DNA of 64,000 nucleotides from Chloroflexota bacterium. GTDB taxonomy: Bacteria > Chloroflexota > Anaerolineae > Promineifilales > Promineifilaceae. The DNA lies in NCBI GenBank assembly GCA_018004935.1, contig JAGNBF010000024.1, positions 1 through 64,000 of the forward strand. The letters are read 5' to 3'. Numbering within the stretch: the stretch's first letter is position 1; each line of letters begins with the position of its first letter. The notes beneath the pieces were generated by a model, which made no database searches, was not told where the DNA came from, and was given only the letters and a program-made list of their open reading frames with translations. Of the stretch, positions 6,885 through 64,000 are shown in pieces. The translations under genes were made by a program, and so were the position numbers.

Positions 6885-8846
6885 TTAATCTTTGGTTATC
6901 AGGGGGTGATAAAGTGGGTTGACCAGTGTAAAGATGGTGGTGGTGATACTGTTGGTGCCGGTGGCACTGGTTTCATCAGAGAGGACGCTATAGGTGTCGT
7001 TAATAATGGTCTGGGTGGCGGTGACAACAAATTGCACCTGTAATTGCCCTTGTACAGCCAATTGTGCCGCATTCCAGGTAACGATGCCGCTGTTGTAATT
7101 GCCGCCGCTGATGTAGCTGGCTCCGGCAGGGACGGTATCGCTGATGATAAGGTTATGGGCAATACCGTTGCCATCGTTATTCACCGTCAGGGTGTAGGTG
7201 ATGAAGTCACCAGGGTTGGCCAGGCCCGGTCCTGCTTTGCTGATGCTGAGAACGGGAACGATGTAAACGGAGTTTACCGCCCCACTGCCATTGGCATTGA
7301 CCTGATCGCTGGTGACGCCAAAGCGGGTGTTCATCAGGCTTTGGCTGGCGGTAACGGTGTATTGAACGCTGGTGCTATTACCGGCGGGCAGGTTGGCAAT
7401 GTTCCAACTAACAACGCCACTATTGTAACTCCCGCCGCTGACATAGGTGGCCCCGGTGGGAACCCAATTGCGGATGGTGAGATTGGTCGCGGCCGCGTTG
7501 CCTGTATTCGTCATTGTCAATGTATATACAATCGGGTCCCCCGTCACAAACGTGTCAGGGCCATCTAGCGTCACAAATAACGCCGGTGACGAGGCCGTTC
7601 CTTCTGCCACCTGCTGTACTGTGCCCGAAGACACATTGGCTACAAATAGATCCCCATTGATGTTTTGCCCAAACGTGGAGCGCCCAAACCCGATCAGATT
7701 ATTGTGTTGGGTACTGGTCCAACCACCCTGACCATCTGGAGCCAGGTCCCAAAAATAACCGGAACAATAATCAGTCATGAGATACCGGCCAAACATGGCC
7801 GGATATTGGCTTCCTCGATAGACATATCCCCCGGTCACGGAGCAACTGGAGCCATGGCTATATTCAAAGACCGGGAAGACATAGTTACCGATGGGGCCAC
7901 AGCCGCTGGTGTTATAGGGGTGATTGCCCTCATAACAGCGCCAGCCATAATTTTCGCCCCCGTCACTATAAACAGGCTGAAAATCAATCTCTTCCCAGGT
8001 TCCCTGTCCCACATCACCAATCCAGAAGTCGCCTGTCCACATATCGAAGGCCGAGCGCCAGGGGTTGCGTAACCCTAAAGCCCAGATTTCATCACAATTG
8101 CCACCGACGCCCGTGATAAATGGATTATCGTTGGGGATGGTGTAATTGCCGGTGCCGGTGCCTTTGCAGTCCGCGGCCGCGCCCGGGCCATTGTCCACAT
8201 CTATCCGGGTGATTTTACCTAACAGGGTTGCCATATTTTGGCCGTTGTTATTTGGGTCGCCACCACTACCCCCATCACCCAGCGGCACATAGAGATACCC
8301 ATCTGGCCCAAAATGAATGCCCCCGGCATTGTGATTGGTGTATGGTTGCACCACGGTGAGCAGAATTTCCTCACTGTTGGGGTCAGCCACATTGGGATTG
8401 CCCGTTACGGTAAAGCGGGAGATACGGGTACGGGAGTCGGAACTGGTGTAGTTGACGTAGAAATACCCATTGGTGGCATAATCCGGGTGGAAAGTCAGCC
8501 CCAACAGCCCCTCTTCACTGCCGGAATCATCTACCCGGGCGGTGATGTCCAGAAAGGGGGTACCGAGAACGGTTCCGTTTGATTGGATGATCTTGATGAT
8601 CCCGGCCTGCTCCACGACAAAGAGACGACTGTCCCCGGCATTGGCCAGACTTACAGGGCTAGAGAGGCCGCTGGCAAAGTTTTGCAGGCTGAGGCTGATG
8701 TTGGCCTGGGGGGCGGCAGAGGGGAGGGTGGGGGTGGATGGTTGCGCGGCCGCGATGAACCAGCTCAATAACAGGCTGAGCCACACCCCGCCCATCAGCA
8801 AGGCCAGTCGTCGGATTGGGGATGAAAAGGTCGGTTGATAGGTCAT
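6885..8846 (-). CDS. Secreted glucose/sorbosone dehydrogenase-like protein with two DUF11 repeats
   Basis: A 653-residue exported protein. A signal peptide (about 1-35) is followed by a PQQ-type glucose/sorbosone dehydrogenase beta-propeller (about 50-410; GLLGLTFHPDY, GDGGSGGDPNNNGQ, EIWALGLRNPWR, GENYGWRCYEG). Two DUF11-type beta-sandwich repeats follow (about 420-520 and 530-630), nearly the same length, each with a YNSG(V/I)V(S/T)WN motif. Propellers of this family oxidise sugars with PQQ in other bacteria; no PQQ synthesis gene is in the window, so the cofactor is inferred. The C-terminus PLYHPLITKD matches the YLP-type tail. It is a paralogue of the next gene on the same strand. Confidence 0.85.
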   Translation of the reverse strand: MTYQPTFSSPIRRLALLMGGVWLSLLLSWFIAAAQPSTPTLPSAAPQANISLSLQNFASGLSSPVSLANAGDSRLFVVEQAGIIKIIQSNGTVLGTPFLDITARVDDSGSEEGLLGLTFHPDYATNGYFYVNYTSSDSRTRISRFTVTGNPNVADPNSEEILLTVVQPYTNHNAGGIHFGPDGYLYVPLGDGGSGGDPNNNGQNMATLLGKITRIDVDNGPGAAADCKGTGTGNYTIPNDNPFITGVGGNCDEIWALGLRNPWRSAFDMWTGDFWIGDVGQGTWEEIDFQPVYSDGGENYGWRCYEGNHPYNTSGCGPIGNYVFPVFEYSHGSSCSVTGGYVYRGSQYPAMFGRYLMTDYCSGYFWDLAPDGQGGWTSTQHNNLIGFGRSTFGQNINGDLFVANVSSGTVQQVAEGTASSPALFVTLDGPDTFVTGDPIVYTLTMTNTGNAAATNLTIRNWVPTGATYVSGGSYNSGVVSWNIANLPAGNSTSVQYTVTASQSLMNTRFGVTSDQVNANGSGAVNSVYIVPVLSISKAGPGLANPGDFITYTLTVNNDGNGIAHNLIISDTVPAGASYISGGNYNSGIVTWNAAQLAVQGQLQVQFVVTATQTIINDTYSVLSDETSATGTNSITTTIFTLVNPLYHPLITKD

Positions 8847-27970: not shown

Positions 27971-28026
27971 CTAAACGCTCTGTATGCGATTGTTACGACT
28001 CAAGGGACGTTGTGGGCAACAACGTT

Positions 28027-28046
28027 TTGTGCAACCGTTTGCACAA
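28027..28046. promoter_or_regulatory. LacI-family operator 1
   Basis: Near-perfect palindrome TTGTGCAACCGTTTGCACAA with the central CG typical of LacI/MalR/CcpA-type operators. It lies about 170 bases upstream of the amylopullulanase start on the minus strand and 155 bases upstream of the DUF3644 gene on the plus strand. The first is the more likely target, because maltose regulators of this family control amylases. Confidence 0.7.
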
Positions 28047-28064
28047 AGATGAGAGAATTATAAG

Positions 28065-28078
28065 TGCAACCGGTTGCA
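28065..28078. promoter_or_regulatory. LacI-family operator 2
   Basis: Perfect 14-bp palindrome TGCAACCGGTTGCA, centre-to-centre 35 bases from operator 1, compatible with cooperative binding or looping by the same regulator. No lacI-type gene is in the window. Confidence 0.72.
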
Positions 28079-28201
28079 TTTGTCAAACGGAAAACTTGAA
28101 TCAAATTTGGTTTGAGCGTTTTGTATTCGGCCTTTGTAAAAGTAAAATTTATTACTATTTATTGTTAGTTAATAATTCTTCCTTTTCGCTTCGAGGTAAA
28201 A

Positions 28202-29188
28202 ATGGCATATAGAAGGGTATGGTCAATCAAGCAAGAGTTAGTTGTTAAGGCTCGGGAAGCTGCTTTCTCGGCAATTCGTGCGTATAATGATCCTTTGATA
28301 ACTTTCAAGTCTGAAACGTTTATTGTCTTAATGATAATTGCTTGGACATATATGCTCCATGCATATTTCCGAAGTGAAGGTATTGACTATCGTTACTTTC
28401 GGTGGCAAAAGAGTCGTCGGATATTTGATCGAACTAAAACTGGTGCTTTCAAGTATTGGGAACTGGAAAGGTGCCTCAACGAGAGTACCTGCCCTATTGA
28501 TAAAGATACAGCAAATAACTTGCGTTTCTTGATAAAACTACGTCATGAAATAGAACATCAAATGACGCTTTCGTTAGATGGCTATCTTAGTGGGCGTTAT
28601 CAAGCGTGTGCGATCAACTTCAACCATTACTTGAAGCAACTATTTGGGCCATCTCAAGGGTTGGATCAACATCTCACATACAGTATTCAACTTGCTCAGA
28701 TTACTCGGGATCAATTTAAGACCGCAGACACTCCTATTTCAGGGCGGTTAAAGGCGTTCATCACAGAATTTGATCAATCATTATCAGGTGATGAGCTGAA
28801 TAGTAGCCGCTTTAGCATTCGCCTGTTGTTTACAAAGCGAACAGCGAATAGACCTGGTCAAGCAGATTCGGTAGTTGAGTTCCTGGATCCAAAATCGGCA
28901 CTTGCCCAATCCATCGACAAGGAGTATTGGGTTCTTAAACCTGTAGAAAAACCCAAGTTTCGAGCAAAAGATGTTGTAGCTCGCGTTAGGTCCGAAGGGT
29001 TTACCAAATTTCGTATATCCCCAGAACATACTGAACTGTGGAAAGCAGAAAATGCCAAAGACCCATCAAAAGGATATGGTGTTGATGTGCAAGGAACTTG
29101 GTATTGGTACCAAAACTGGATTGATTATTGTATAAAAAGCTGTACTGCTAATCCCGAGAAATATGAAGCTAATGAGATTACCAAATAG
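28202..29188 (+). CDS. DUF3644-family HEPN-like protein
   Basis: 328 residues. The N-terminal half is the DUF3644 signature (AIRAYNDPLITFKSETFIVLMIIAWTYMLHA... in the 20-60 region). LRHEIEHQ at about 110-117 fits the HEPN catalytic pattern R-x4-6-H, with the polar residue right after Arg. HEPN proteins are often RNA-cutting toxins or defence effectors (family knowledge); a role here is inference. The C-terminal part (about 220-328), rich in Lys and aromatic residues, may be a nucleic-acid-binding or helix-turn-helix-like domain. The gene is clearly AT-richer than its neighbours and has no GCGGCCGC octamer, suggesting recent acquisition. It stands alone, with operators upstream that probably belong to the divergent gene. 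Confidence 0.8.
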   Translation: MAYRRVWSIKQELVVKAREAAFSAIRAYNDPLITFKSETFIVLMIIAWTYMLHAYFRSEGIDYRYFRWQKSRRIFDRTKTGAFKYWELERCLNESTCPIDKDTANNLRFLIKLRHEIEHQMTLSLDGYLSGRYQACAINFNHYLKQLFGPSQGLDQHLTYSIQLAQITRDQFKTADTPISGRLKAFITEFDQSLSGDELNSSRFSIRLLFTKRTANRPGQADSVVEFLDPKSALAQSIDKEYWVLKPVEKPKFRAKDVVARVRSEGFTKFRISPEHTELWKAENAKDPSKGYGVDVQGTWYWYQNWIDYCIKSCTANPEKYEANEITK

Positions 29189-29561
29189 AATGGGCAACCT
29201 GAAGTTCAAAAGAGAAATTTCAGGTTTGGGTTAGACTCAATTACAGTGGCTTTGGTCAATCCTAAAGTGCCCCAAGGGTGCGGCACACTTTTTTGCAAGG
29301 GGCTAACAAGCTCCATTTTCAGTAGCAATCAGGCATGAAATTGCAAACAAAACAAGTATCAGGACAATGAAAAACCGCTTTCATAAGGCAATTCGGGACT
29401 GCTTTCACCGTTGCCACATGTCTGAATTTCACCTGATATGACCTTCTGCAAAAATCTGTGCCGCACCTTTGTTTTAGTTTCCCTGTGGCAGAGTGACTTT
29501 CAAATAGCTATACTGCAATAACCTCAAGTTTATTTTCTTTTTGAACTGGAAAACAGCGAAA
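29189..29561. other. Gap between DUF3644 and HEPN genes
   Basis: A weak hairpin AACCTGAA...TTCAGGTT at about 29200-29232 could end the DUF3644 transcript. The rest is AT-rich with no octamer, no dispersed repeat and no convincing gene. The block 29260-29480 shows no obvious hairpin. Confidence 0.5.
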
Positions 29562-30233
29562 ATGATGCAACAACGTCTTATAAACCGGGTAGAAGAATTA
29601 CTTCAACAAGGTAACAATGTAATGACTACTAAACGGTTATCCCGTGATGGTTATAGTGAAGTAATCGATTACAGTAAAATGCTTGGCTTTCGAGTGGCTG
29701 TTCTTTCCTTTATTGAACGAGTATATGGTGTTTCCCATACACATTACCAGGAATTTTTAAAACACATCAACGGGGATCATGTATCTTCTCCTCAAATAGC
29801 AATGTCAATACTTCAGACCATTCATGATGAAATTGCTGGTGATTGGCTATTTTCAGTCAAAGGACTGGTTACTGCTGAGGTTTTTTCAGATTTCATTGAT
29901 ATGGCAAATTATTTGGTAGCCCAAGAGTACAAAGATGCGGCCGCCGTTATTGCTGGTAGTGTTTTAGAGGAACACATCCGTCAATTATGCCAAAGCAATG
30001 GCATAGACCTTGAGGTTTCAACCGCAAACGGAACCAAACCTAAAAAAGCAGATCAGATGAATGCTGATCTTGCGGGTGCAAGTGTCTATTCAAAATTAGA
30101 TCAAAAAGCCGTAACGATGTGGTTTGATTTACGCAACAAAGCTGCTCACGGCAAATATAGTGAATACAACCAAGTGCAAGTCGAGAACATGATCGCAGGA
30201 ATTACAGAGTTTATGGCACGTAACTCAGCATAA
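29562..30233 (+). CDS. HEPN-domain protein (LRNKAAH motif)
   Basis: 223 residues from ATG 29562 (an in-frame TTG at 29541 would add seven). The C-terminal half is an all-helical HEPN/abortive-infection-type domain. KDAAAVIAGSVLEEHIRQLC is the first helix pair, and WFDLRNKAAHGKY carries R-N-x3-H, the RNase-like HEPN motif, at about residues 195-203. The N-terminal half (about 1-110) is helical and unrecognised. One GCGGCCGC octamer encodes the Ala-Ala-Ala at the start of the HEPN helix, although the gene is otherwise AT-rich. With the DUF3644 gene upstream, it forms a two-HEPN island. Confidence 0.78.
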   Translation: MMQQRLINRVEELLQQGNNVMTTKRLSRDGYSEVIDYSKMLGFRVAVLSFIERVYGVSHTHYQEFLKHINGDHVSSPQIAMSILQTIHDEIAGDWLFSVKGLVTAEVFSDFIDMANYLVAQEYKDAAAVIAGSVLEEHIRQLCQSNGIDLEVSTANGTKPKKADQMNADLAGASVYSKLDQKAVTMWFDLRNKAAHGKYSEYNQVQVENMIAGITEFMARNSA

Positions 30234-57754: not shown

Positions 57755-58147
57755 TTACTGCTGTTCACTGCTCCCTTCCAAATCCTGCACGAACACCAAC
57801 GCCTCACCGGTGCAGACGATTTCCCCCTGACTGGTGCAGGTGGTTTGCAGGTTGACGAGGTTTTTGTCGGGGCGCAGGCGGGTGATGGTGACGGTGGCGG
57901 TGATGGGTTCGTCCAGGTGGGCGGGGTGGGGGAAGGTGAGGGATTGTTTGAGCCAGTTCGTGCCGCGGCCGGGGAGTTGGGTTCCCAGCAGACAGGAGAA
58001 AAGACCGGCTAACAAAGGGCCGGGCACTGCGGTAGGGTCGGGGCCGAATAAGCCCTGGTCGCCGGAGAGGGAACGGTACGCGGCCGCGTCCTCAGCCGCA
58101 AACGTTCGTGTCAGAGTGGCGTGTTGCCCAACGGTGAGACCTTTCAT
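57755..58147 (-). CDS. MaoC-like hotdog protein lacking the hydratase motif
   Basis: 130 residues with the single hotdog fold of MaoC-type proteins: FAAEDAAAYRSLSGDQ, VPGPLLAGLFSCLLG and LDEPITATVTITRLRPDKN. The usual catalytic GD-x-NPIH is GDQGLFGPD here, so the histidine is missing and it may be a thioesterase-like or inactive homologue. An intact paralogue is at 59855. 3' of it lie CACTGCTTACT microrepeats (57725-57775). Confidence 0.78.
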   Translation of the reverse strand: MKGLTVGQHATLTRTFAAEDAAAYRSLSGDQGLFGPDPTAVPGPLLAGLFSCLLGTQLPGRGTNWLKQSLTFPHPAHLDEPITATVTITRLRPDKNLVNLQTTCTSQGEIVCTGEALVFVQDLEGSSEQQ

Positions 58148-58164
58148 GGATTAATCCTCAGTGG

Positions 58165-58285
58165 GTGGTGTATTGGTGTATTGGTGTATTGGTGTATTGG
58201 TGTATTGGTGTATTGGTGTATTGGTGTATTGGTGTATTGGTGTATTGGTGTATTGGTGTATTGGTGTATTGGTGTATTGGTTCAC
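58165..58285. repeat. 8-bp tandem repeat GTATTGGT, about 14 copies
   Basis: Perfect head-to-tail array in the gap between the hotdog and crotonase genes, followed by ATACTAATATACTAATATACCAGTATACCAAT-like degenerate units. Both neighbours are on the minus strand, so it lies between genes of one likely transcript. Confidence 0.95.
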
Positions 58286-58330
58286 CGCGATCAATATACT
58301 AATATACTAATATACCAGTATACCAATAAC

Positions 58331-59086
58331 TCACTCCCCCAAAAACCGCTTCATCCCCGCCAGTGCCTCTGGCGTCAGGATTTGTTGCACGAAATGCGCC
58401 CGTTCGGCTTCCAGGCGGGCGGCGATGGTGGGCAGATTGCCCCGGAGCAGTTGGCGGGTGTGGCGCATACTGCCGGGCTGGTGGTGAATGAGGGTGTCCG
58501 CGGCTGCGAGCGCCACATCCATCAGCTTCTCTCGCGCCACCACCTGCCCGGCCAACCCCCAGGCCACCGCCTGCTCCGCCGTGATGCTCAAATTACGCAA
58601 CAAAATATCGGCCACGCGCCGCGCCCCGATGATCTGGGGTAGGATGGCCGTCCAACCCCCGTCGGGGCTGAAGCCCACGACGTTGTAGTAGGGGGTGATC
58701 GTCGTCTCCGGGGTGATGAAGGTGATGTCTGAGGCCAGGAGTAGCCCCAGTGACCCGCCGGTGATGATGCCGGGCGCGGCCGCGATGACCGGCATGGGCA
58801 TTTCCAGCAGGGCCAGAATGGTTTGGTTGAGCAAGCCCACCAGATGATGCGCGTAACTTTCGAGGTTGGCCTGGTGCTCGTAGAACGCCCGCACATCGCC
58901 GCCGGTGGAGAAGTTGCGGCCGCGGGCTGTCAGCACCATCACCCGGCACGTCTCTGACCGGGCTACCTCCGCCAGCCCCGCCAACAGCTCTTCCAGCAAC
59001 GCCGCAACCAGGCTGTTGTGCCGCTCCGGGCGGTTCAACGTCACCACCGCCACCTGTTCACGAAATTCAGTCAAAATAAGGGCCAT
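58331..59086 (-). CDS. Enoyl-CoA hydratase/isomerase (crotonase)
   Basis: 251 residues. Oxyanion-hole glycines in STGGDVRAF and APGIITGGSLGLLLASD; YNVVGFSPDGGWTAILPQIIG in the second catalytic segment, where one of the two catalytic glutamates of true hydratases is Asp and the other Gly. It may therefore be an isomerase or other crotonase rather than a hydratase. It lies within the acyl-CoA gene set. Confidence 0.88.
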   Translation of the reverse strand: MALILTEFREQVAVVTLNRPERHNSLVAALLEELLAGLAEVARSETCRVMVLTARGRNFSTGGDVRAFYEHQANLESYAHHLVGLLNQTILALLEMPMPVIAAAPGIITGGSLGLLLASDITFITPETTITPYYNVVGFSPDGGWTAILPQIIGARRVADILLRNLSITAEQAVAWGLAGQVVAREKLMDVALAAADTLIHHQPGSMRHTRQLLRGNLPTIAARLEAERAHFVQQILTPEALAGMKRFLGE

Positions 59087-62120: not shown

Positions 62121-64000
62121 ATGGGCAACGGCGACAAAAACCTCGGGTATTTTTTGACTTACGAAATTTGGCAAGATGCATTAAGATTGCTCAATGCTCA
62201 AGTTGAAGGTCAAGAAAGCAATAAGCACTTCAAGACCCTAAGCATGATCTATTATAAGAAGTTAGGGAGTTCTGTTAAGCAGTTAGAAACAATAGACTTT
62301 TTTGAAAGCTATGTAACCAATAATTTGTTTTATGGATTGGAAAGTGAATTTGCTATTTATTCGTATGTTATACCCAAGTCAGGGCTAGGATTACGAAACT
62401 ACAAATTCTTCACTTATCCAATGCGGGCAATTTATGATTCTATCGGATTGTACTTGCTCAAACTGTCTGATGAATTCCTGATAAATTACTATCGCAAGAA
62501 CTCAAATATTCGATCCTTCTACGGTGGCGGTATACATTTTGAAAATGATAGGCTTGTTATCACCAAGAACAACATTTACTTTTCATCATATTACCGCAAG
62601 TTTCGTAATGAGATCAGGAAAGAGCTAAAAGCTGATGAAGATAACAGGGTAATCATCAGAATTGACATCCAGAATTATTACGACGAAATATCTATCCCGA
62701 TTTTGTTGGAGCAGTTTCGACAAAATTATAAAGATAGTGAAAAAGCAAGGCTAAATTTTGATACTACCACAGAGGAACAGATAGCGTTTTTCTTTCGGTT
62801 TTTAGCGAATGCTAGTAGGGGAATCCCTCAGTCAGACAACAGCATCATTTCTAGCATTATTGGCCACTTGTATTTGGTCTTTGGAGATTTAGTGATTGAC
62901 AGTGAACTTAGAAAAGATGCTGACATTCTTGAACGCTACAAGATTATTAGGTATGTGGATGATGTTTTTGTGTCACTAAAGTTTAAAAACAGTGTAACAA
63001 ATAGCGAGCAAAAGGAATACATCGAATCGATTGGGGCAAGAATTTCTGATTTACTCTTTTATAAATTGGGGTTGAGATTGAACCCAAAGACCCGGTTTTT
63101 CTGGCTTGATAATCCCAAGCATTTAGAAGATTTGAAAACATCTCTAAAGAAAGTATCACCACAGTATTATTCAGGCTTAGACGAGATTGACGACGAGACT
63201 TTGGAAAACAAAGTACACAATATATTTGACGAGTTAAGAAAGCTCAAAAAGTCCAACTTGGAGCCAGAAACTTTTGAGCATGAATTGGCCGATGAGATAC
63301 TAAAGGAGATTTTTGACAAACGCGTGGCACAAGTGTTAGAAAAAGCGGAAAACAAAAAACGAATTCGCGAAATTTTCAGAAATTTTGATTTTAACAGAGT
63401 CAAAGAGTACCCGTTGCCGATGATTATCGTTATTTTGAAGGATAAAACGGTGGAAGATGCTTTCCGAGCGTATCTACTAAACCGAAAAAACATTACATCT
63501 AAAGATGTGGATTTAATGTTGACTTATCTTTGTCAAAACGATTTCACAGACAACAGTGTCCTTAGATTAATGGAAAAGTACCTTCCAATGAGCAAGATTA
63601 TCTCAAAGATTACAAGTTGTGATTTGGCCCATTTGCAACCTGGCTACTATGGTTTGCATAGTGGTCAAGTGCAGCGATTATGTTCAATGACTGATGTAAT
63701 AGAACAAATACGTCACAGAGTATTTAATGAAAGAATTGGCTCGTATTCAGTGGCTTTGAATCATTTGCTAAACGAATTGCACGGCATTTGCTATCAAATT
63801 GATGATATTGGGAAAAAGAGTAAAGAATATGATGCTAATCAGGTTGTTCAGTTTCTCCAAACACAAGGCATCTCACATCATGTGTGTATTGGTGTCCGAA
63901 GACTTTTTGACCGAAGGAACACAAATCAAGTTTCACATCCAGGATCGGCTAATTTTCTTGCATGGAGTGTTTCTCAATTAGAGTACTTGCAGTATCAACA
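62121..64000 (+). CDS. AbiA-like reverse transcriptase with C-terminal HEPN motif (runs off the window)
   Basis: 626 codons are visible with no stop; the 3' end lies beyond the window. The reverse-transcriptase palm is seen as RIDIQNYYDEI (D182), RGIPQSD (233-239) and RYVDDVFVS (Y278-D281). Residues about 400-560 are helical without known signature. Near the end, RRLFDRRNTNQVSHPG contains R599-N600...H606, the Rx6H HEPN RNase motif with a polar residue after Arg. RT plus helical repeats plus HEPN is the layout of AbiA-type abortive-infection proteins (family knowledge), which polymerise DNA without being retrons or group II introns. AT-rich, no GCGGCCGC octamer, hence probably acquired. Anti-phage function is inference. 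A weak GGATACTC-like leader precedes the ATG; no RBS is obvious. Confidence 0.85.
   Translation, partial: MGNGDKNLGYFLTYEIWQDALRLLNAQVEGQESNKHFKTLSMIYYKKLGSSVKQLETIDFFESYVTNNLFYGLESEFAIYSYVIPKSGLGLRNYKFFTYPMRAIYDSIGLYLLKLSDEFLINYYRKNSNIRSFYGGGIHFENDRLVITKNNIYFSSYYRKFRNEIRKELKADEDNRVIIRIDIQNYYDEISIPILLEQFRQNYKDSEKARLNFDTTTEEQIAFFFRFLANASRGIPQSDNSIISSIIGHLYLVFGDLVIDSELRKDADILERYKIIRYVDDVFVSLKFKNSVTNSEQKEYIESIGARISDLLFYKLGLRLNPKTRFFWLDNPKHLEDLKTSLKKVSPQYYSGLDEIDDETLENKVHNIFDELRKLKKSNLEPETFEHELADEILKEIFDKRVAQVLEKAENKKRIREIFRNFDFNRVKEYPLPMIIVILKDKTVEDAFRAYLLNRKNITSKDVDLMLTYLCQNDFTDNSVLRLMEKYLPMSKIISKITSCDLAHLQPGYYGLHSGQVQRLCSMTDVIEQIRHRVFNERIGSYSVALNHLLNELHGICYQIDDIGKKSKEYDANQVVQFLQTQGISHHVCIGVRRLFDRRNTNQVSHPGSANFLAWSVSQLEYLQYQ

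Follow-up and report, generated by a model that had tools for sequence, protein, structure and literature searches.

An apparently intact AbiA-family gene, predicted to encode an abortive-infection polymerase, on a Chloroflexota contig

The reading frame at the end of the analysed DNA is an apparently intact member of the AbiA family, a known group of bacterial anti-phage proteins in which a reverse-transcriptase-like DNA polymerase is fused to a HEPN domain, and not a new kind of system. Its product is very probably a single-gene abortive-infection polymerase acting by the mechanism proposed from Lactococcus lactis AbiA, the mechanism itself being carried over by analogy. This analysis establishes family and fold, the order of the domains, the catalytic motifs and purifying selection, and found no conserved partner, whereas protein priming, untemplated synthesis, dimerisation and phage protection are taken by inference from the literature. 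The gene is sparse in its class, intact and, as predicted, probably functional, and it lies far from the only characterised AbiA. It is an unremarkable member of an established defence family, which the preliminary description of this DNA had correctly recognised.

Gene and family assignment

The window, meaning the whole stretch of DNA analysed, covers positions 1 to 64,000 of a contig that is 76,776 bases long and belongs to a genome of 7.98 Mb. The reading frame begins with an ATG at position 62121 of the forward strand and, as described earlier, is truncated by the window end. The stop lies beyond it, at contig position 64043, and with these 43 further bases the complete product comprises 640 residues (Table 1).

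The window-truncated frame matched the NCBIfam model TIGR04499 (AbiA family abortive infection protein; cut-off 250 bits) with 374.8 bits (E-value 9e-112, model positions 1–607 of 615), and the whole gene matched it with 378.7 bits (positions 1–615). In PADLOC, AbiA was the top of 12 matches (5.8e-81), and all 11 aligned sequences matched this model; Pfam gave only a weak RVT_1 match. Neither the protein nor an 11-row profile of its relatives retrieved AbiA from the PDB by sequence, because the L. lactis protein is too distant at that level; a fold search recovered it.

Table 1. Features of the abiA-family gene and its product.
Feature	Position	Strand	Basis
abiA-family gene, 640 aa	62121..64000, stop ends at contig 64043	+	TIGR04499 374.8 bits, PADLOC AbiA 5.8e-81
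RT-like fingers/palm, ~residues 1–346, boundary approximate	62121..63158	+	alignment, model, aligned range
RT-like region motifs DIQNYYDE (182–189), GIPQ (234–237), RYVDD (277–281)	within 62121..63158	+	
RYVDD catalytic motif, residues 277–281	62949..62963	+	sequence and alignment
Y349–Y350, loop between RT and helical domain	63165..63170	+	alignment; low-confidence loop of model
Alpha-helical domain, ~residues 361–500, boundary approximate	63201..63620	+	model secondary structure
C-terminal HEPN domain, ~residues 501–640	63621..64000, plus 43 bases past window including stop	+	HEPN-only fold comparison
HEPN R-x6-H motif RNTNQVSH, residues 599–606	63915..63938	+	sequence, alignment of relatives

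Predicted structure

An AlphaFold2 model was built on an alignment of 11 sequences and reached a mean pLDDT of 83 and a pTM of 0.86. The four best matches in a fold search of the PDB were chains of 8OZ7, the structure of L. lactis AbiA (TM 0.69/0.75, E-value 4e-14). VIA-align 2 superposed 548 residues of the model (range 6–640) on 8OZ7 with a Z-score of 27.6 and 14% identity; the next entry was a group II reverse transcriptase (RT), which matched the RT part only (Z 17.8, 270 residues). Helices follow residue 361 in the model and, taken with the full-length match to 8OZ7, indicate that a helical domain replaces the thumb. The last 140 residues, folded alone, formed a helical bundle (pLDDT 84), for which VIA-align 2 returned residues 472–624 of 8OZ7 as the best match (Z 12.0), followed by HEPN proteins (Z 8–10). 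HEPN proteins also ranked first in Foldseek, with E-values that were not significant.

The full-length superposition and the HEPN-only matches together confirm the order RT, alpha-helical, HEPN that the preliminary description had put forward for structure prediction. It had named the absence of a HEPN fold from the C-terminal part as evidence against its reading; such a fold is present. Its central claim, an AbiA-like protein joining a reverse transcriptase to a HEPN domain, is thus upheld by the family models, the superposition on 8OZ7 and the HEPN-only comparison.

The likeness to L. lactis AbiA (8OZ7; PMC11077055) comprises the RT-like, helical and HEPN order over the full length, RYVDD, a tyrosine in the RT–helical loop, the single-gene arrangement and the spacing of R-x6-H (RNSNPVSH there, RNTNQVSH here). 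In contrast, the two proteins share few residues over the superposed length, and the present gene lies on a chromosomal-type contig, whereas that of L. lactis is on a lactococcal plasmid. AbiK and Abi-P2, likewise Abi polymerases, also have an RT-like and a helical domain and were found as structural matches (Z 14–15), but they lack the HEPN domain and form trimers or hexamers (PMC11077055).

Conserved motifs and selection

The palm carries its two catalytic aspartates, D280 and D281, in RYVDD (R277–D281), and R599 and H606 lie in RNTNQVSH, all four where the earlier reading had placed them. All ten relatives in the alignment of the HEPN region retain R599, N600 and H606, in a motif of the type RNxNxxSH. 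Y349 is conserved in all nine full-length aligned sequences and sits in a low-confidence loop of the model. By its place in this loop and its conservation, rather than by residue-level alignment, it is a candidate priming tyrosine and the putative counterpart of L. lactis Y298.

The nearest relatives are L031, from a metagenome-assembled genome (MAG) labelled Candidatus Cloacimonadales, and L037, from a Caldilineaceae MAG, where the gene is cut by the contig end; both are 75–76% identical over the aligned length. Against these two, dN was 0.14 and dS 1.3–1.8. The resulting dN/dS of near 0.1 and the intact reading frame suggest that the gene is likely working. In the comparison with L031, the HEPN segment was the best conserved, at 82% versus 77% and 68% for the other parts.

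Genomic neighbourhood

The ordinary acyl-CoA genes noted in the preliminary description adjoin abiA upstream; they lie on the opposite strand. Its suggestion that partner genes may follow was not borne out: beyond the gene lie a HigB-like toxin and an HTH (HigA-like) antitoxin, then a methyltransferase and other unrelated single genes. A flank comparison with the relatives 75–76% identical yielded no dedicated or conserved partner gene. The flanking DNA of L031 and L037 is unrelated to that of this locus; similarity to both starts with the start codon, and that to L031 stops with the stop codon. Because similarity does not extend beyond the coding sequence, abiA is, as judged from these alignments, a single unit that persists or moves by itself, with no conserved partner or upstream RNA.

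Elsewhere, abiA has among its neighbours toxin-antitoxin pairs in L031 (upstream of the gene), a type I-like methylase together with an Mrr-type endonuclease in L035, and a cytosine methylase in L036, consistent with variable, defence-rich sites. The 18 kb around the present gene contain no tRNA, and none of the neighbours scanned is an integrase; there is thus no integration signal.

The toxin-antitoxin pair 3' of abiA lies shortly beyond the window end, at L002:6371-7212 (contig 64370-65211). As listed, its toxin frame has a long N-terminal extension ahead of the HigB match, and its start is probably wrong. Short, near-identical intergenic repeats of the CAATTCACCATTCACAATT type occur at L002:6060-6117, 8369-8410 and 2252-2292, one of them directly 3' of abiA. 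A short tandem run lies between two acyl-CoA-type genes, in the first part of window positions 58121-58642; one of its frames reads repeated CIGVLVYW. In L031, a group II intron RNA match (RF02012; L031:7993-8072) begins 70 bases after the stop of its abiA and is truncated where the contig ends.

Proposed mechanism and alternative readings

L. lactis AbiA is a dimer through its HEPN domains and synthesises DNA without a template, with the protein itself as primer through Tyr298/Tyr303 of the loop that follows the RT domain; D240N, as well as Y298F/Y303F, abolished both activity and protection (PMC11077055). By analogy, the present protein would dimerise via its HEPN domains, and Y349, in the RT–helical loop, would accept the first nucleotide. 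The RYVDD site would then extend untemplated single-stranded DNA that remains attached to the protein, and this protein-linked synthesis would stop the propagation of certain phages. Nucleotide preference, priming residue and HEPN role could differ from L. lactis AbiA, since the identity over the structural alignment is low and the profile of relatives did not reach that protein by sequence in the PDB.

The HEPN domain might instead be an active RNase, with the polymerase part sensing or answering infection and HEPN cleaving RNA to halt the cell. This idea has been put forward for the C-terminal domain of AbiA (PMC3710099) and would fit both the intact, invariant R599, N600 and H606 and the high conservation of the HEPN segment relative to L031. 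We nevertheless consider it unlikely, as L. lactis AbiA, which shares the R-x6-H motif, left every RNA that it was tested on uncut, and its R581A, H588A and double mutants retained phage protection, the double mutant in full (PMC11077055). Slightly less likely again is that this deeply diverged branch, unlike the L. lactis report, keeps its invariant R-x6-H because HEPN is a working RNase acting with the polymerase. Because the HEPN arginine and histidine are dispensable in L. lactis AbiA, mutation of R599/H606 may well leave protection unchanged here too. These residues are invariant in this branch yet dispensable in the sole AbiA tested, that of L. lactis; a distant second protein could therefore probe the purpose of the AbiA HEPN site.

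Other bacterial defence RTs use non-coding RNA, and the RT-like fold, with DRT9, DRT2 and DRT6 among the structural matches, would also suit an RNA-templated enzyme of the DRT2 or DRT9 kind using an unrecognised RNA adjoining the gene. This is very improbable: the 300 bases upstream had no similarity above shuffles to those of L031 and L037, nor did the short downstream stretch compared; Rfam gave no RNA match at the locus, and L. lactis AbiA polymerises without a template (PMC11077055). A diverged RNA might lie elsewhere, beyond the stretches compared. The chance that a group II intron or retron RT was misread as AbiA is close to nil. Weak RVT_1 and group_II_RT_mat matches point that way, as does the fit of the RT part alone to group II RTs (Z about 17), but the NCBIfam scores fell far below their cut-offs (group_II_RT_mat 32.4 bits versus 300; retron St85 19 versus 235), Rfam returned no intron or retron RNA, and AbiA was the only full-length structural match. 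We therefore rejected this assignment; the placement with group II intron or retron RTs that the preliminary description had named as evidence against its reading did not occur.

Relatives, distribution and origin

AbiA proteins of cyanobacteria, Nitrospirota and Chloroflexota (L004, L032–L036, L038–L042) are about 43–50% identical to the present one, carry the same motifs and, where scanned, match the same PADLOC model. In some, YVDD is replaced by YTDD, FVDD or FMDD, and the loop with the candidate priming tyrosine carries additional residues. The tree places the window protein with the Caldilineaceae MAG and the Cloacimonadales-labelled MAG (100/100), and other Chloroflexota sequences elsewhere, with Nitrospirota. 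Counting the genome of the window itself, TIGR04499 exceeded its cut-off in 2 of 298 genomes of the class. This grouping and the scattered presence support horizontal transfer, with MAG binning errors possible. Phage records and IMG/VR viral contigs contained no relative, the sole match among plasmid records was one of 28% to the RT domain, adjoining a SLATT gene, and the literature searched included no paper on AbiA in Chloroflexi.

In an Anaerolineae abiA (L041:6001-9323; identical with the gene of L005/L028 in G094), roughly 1.4 kb of inserted DNA with a DDE transposase match interrupts the frame immediately ahead of the RYVDD codons. The 3' part of this gene has further stops, indicating a decayed copy.

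The AT-rich block noted earlier was confirmed. The GC content of abiA is 36.5% versus 54.7% in the flanks, its third-position GC is 39% versus 69–82% in three neighbouring genes, and in 1.88-kb stretches the AT content of the window peaks over the gene. The claim of recent acquisition, inferred from composition only, is partly supported: the GC contrast speaks for it, but this AbiA branch is AT-rich in nearly all hosts (27–40% GC, with one exception at 53.5%), no close donor is known, and a dS above 1 does not point to a recent one. The block indeed lacks the octamer GCGGCCGC, as had been pointed out. However, five gaps in the window are longer than the octamer-free one over abiA (61765 to 64061, 2296 bp), which ranks sixth; the absence of the octamer is thus uninformative and was dropped as evidence of foreign origin.

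Along window positions 1-64000, GCGGCCGC itself occurs 85 times versus 1.8 expected from dinucleotide shuffles, an approximately 47-fold excess that is distributed over the whole length and resembles the cyanobacterial HIP1 octamer. A second AT-rich block, with a GC content of about 40%, lies at window positions 28001-30000.
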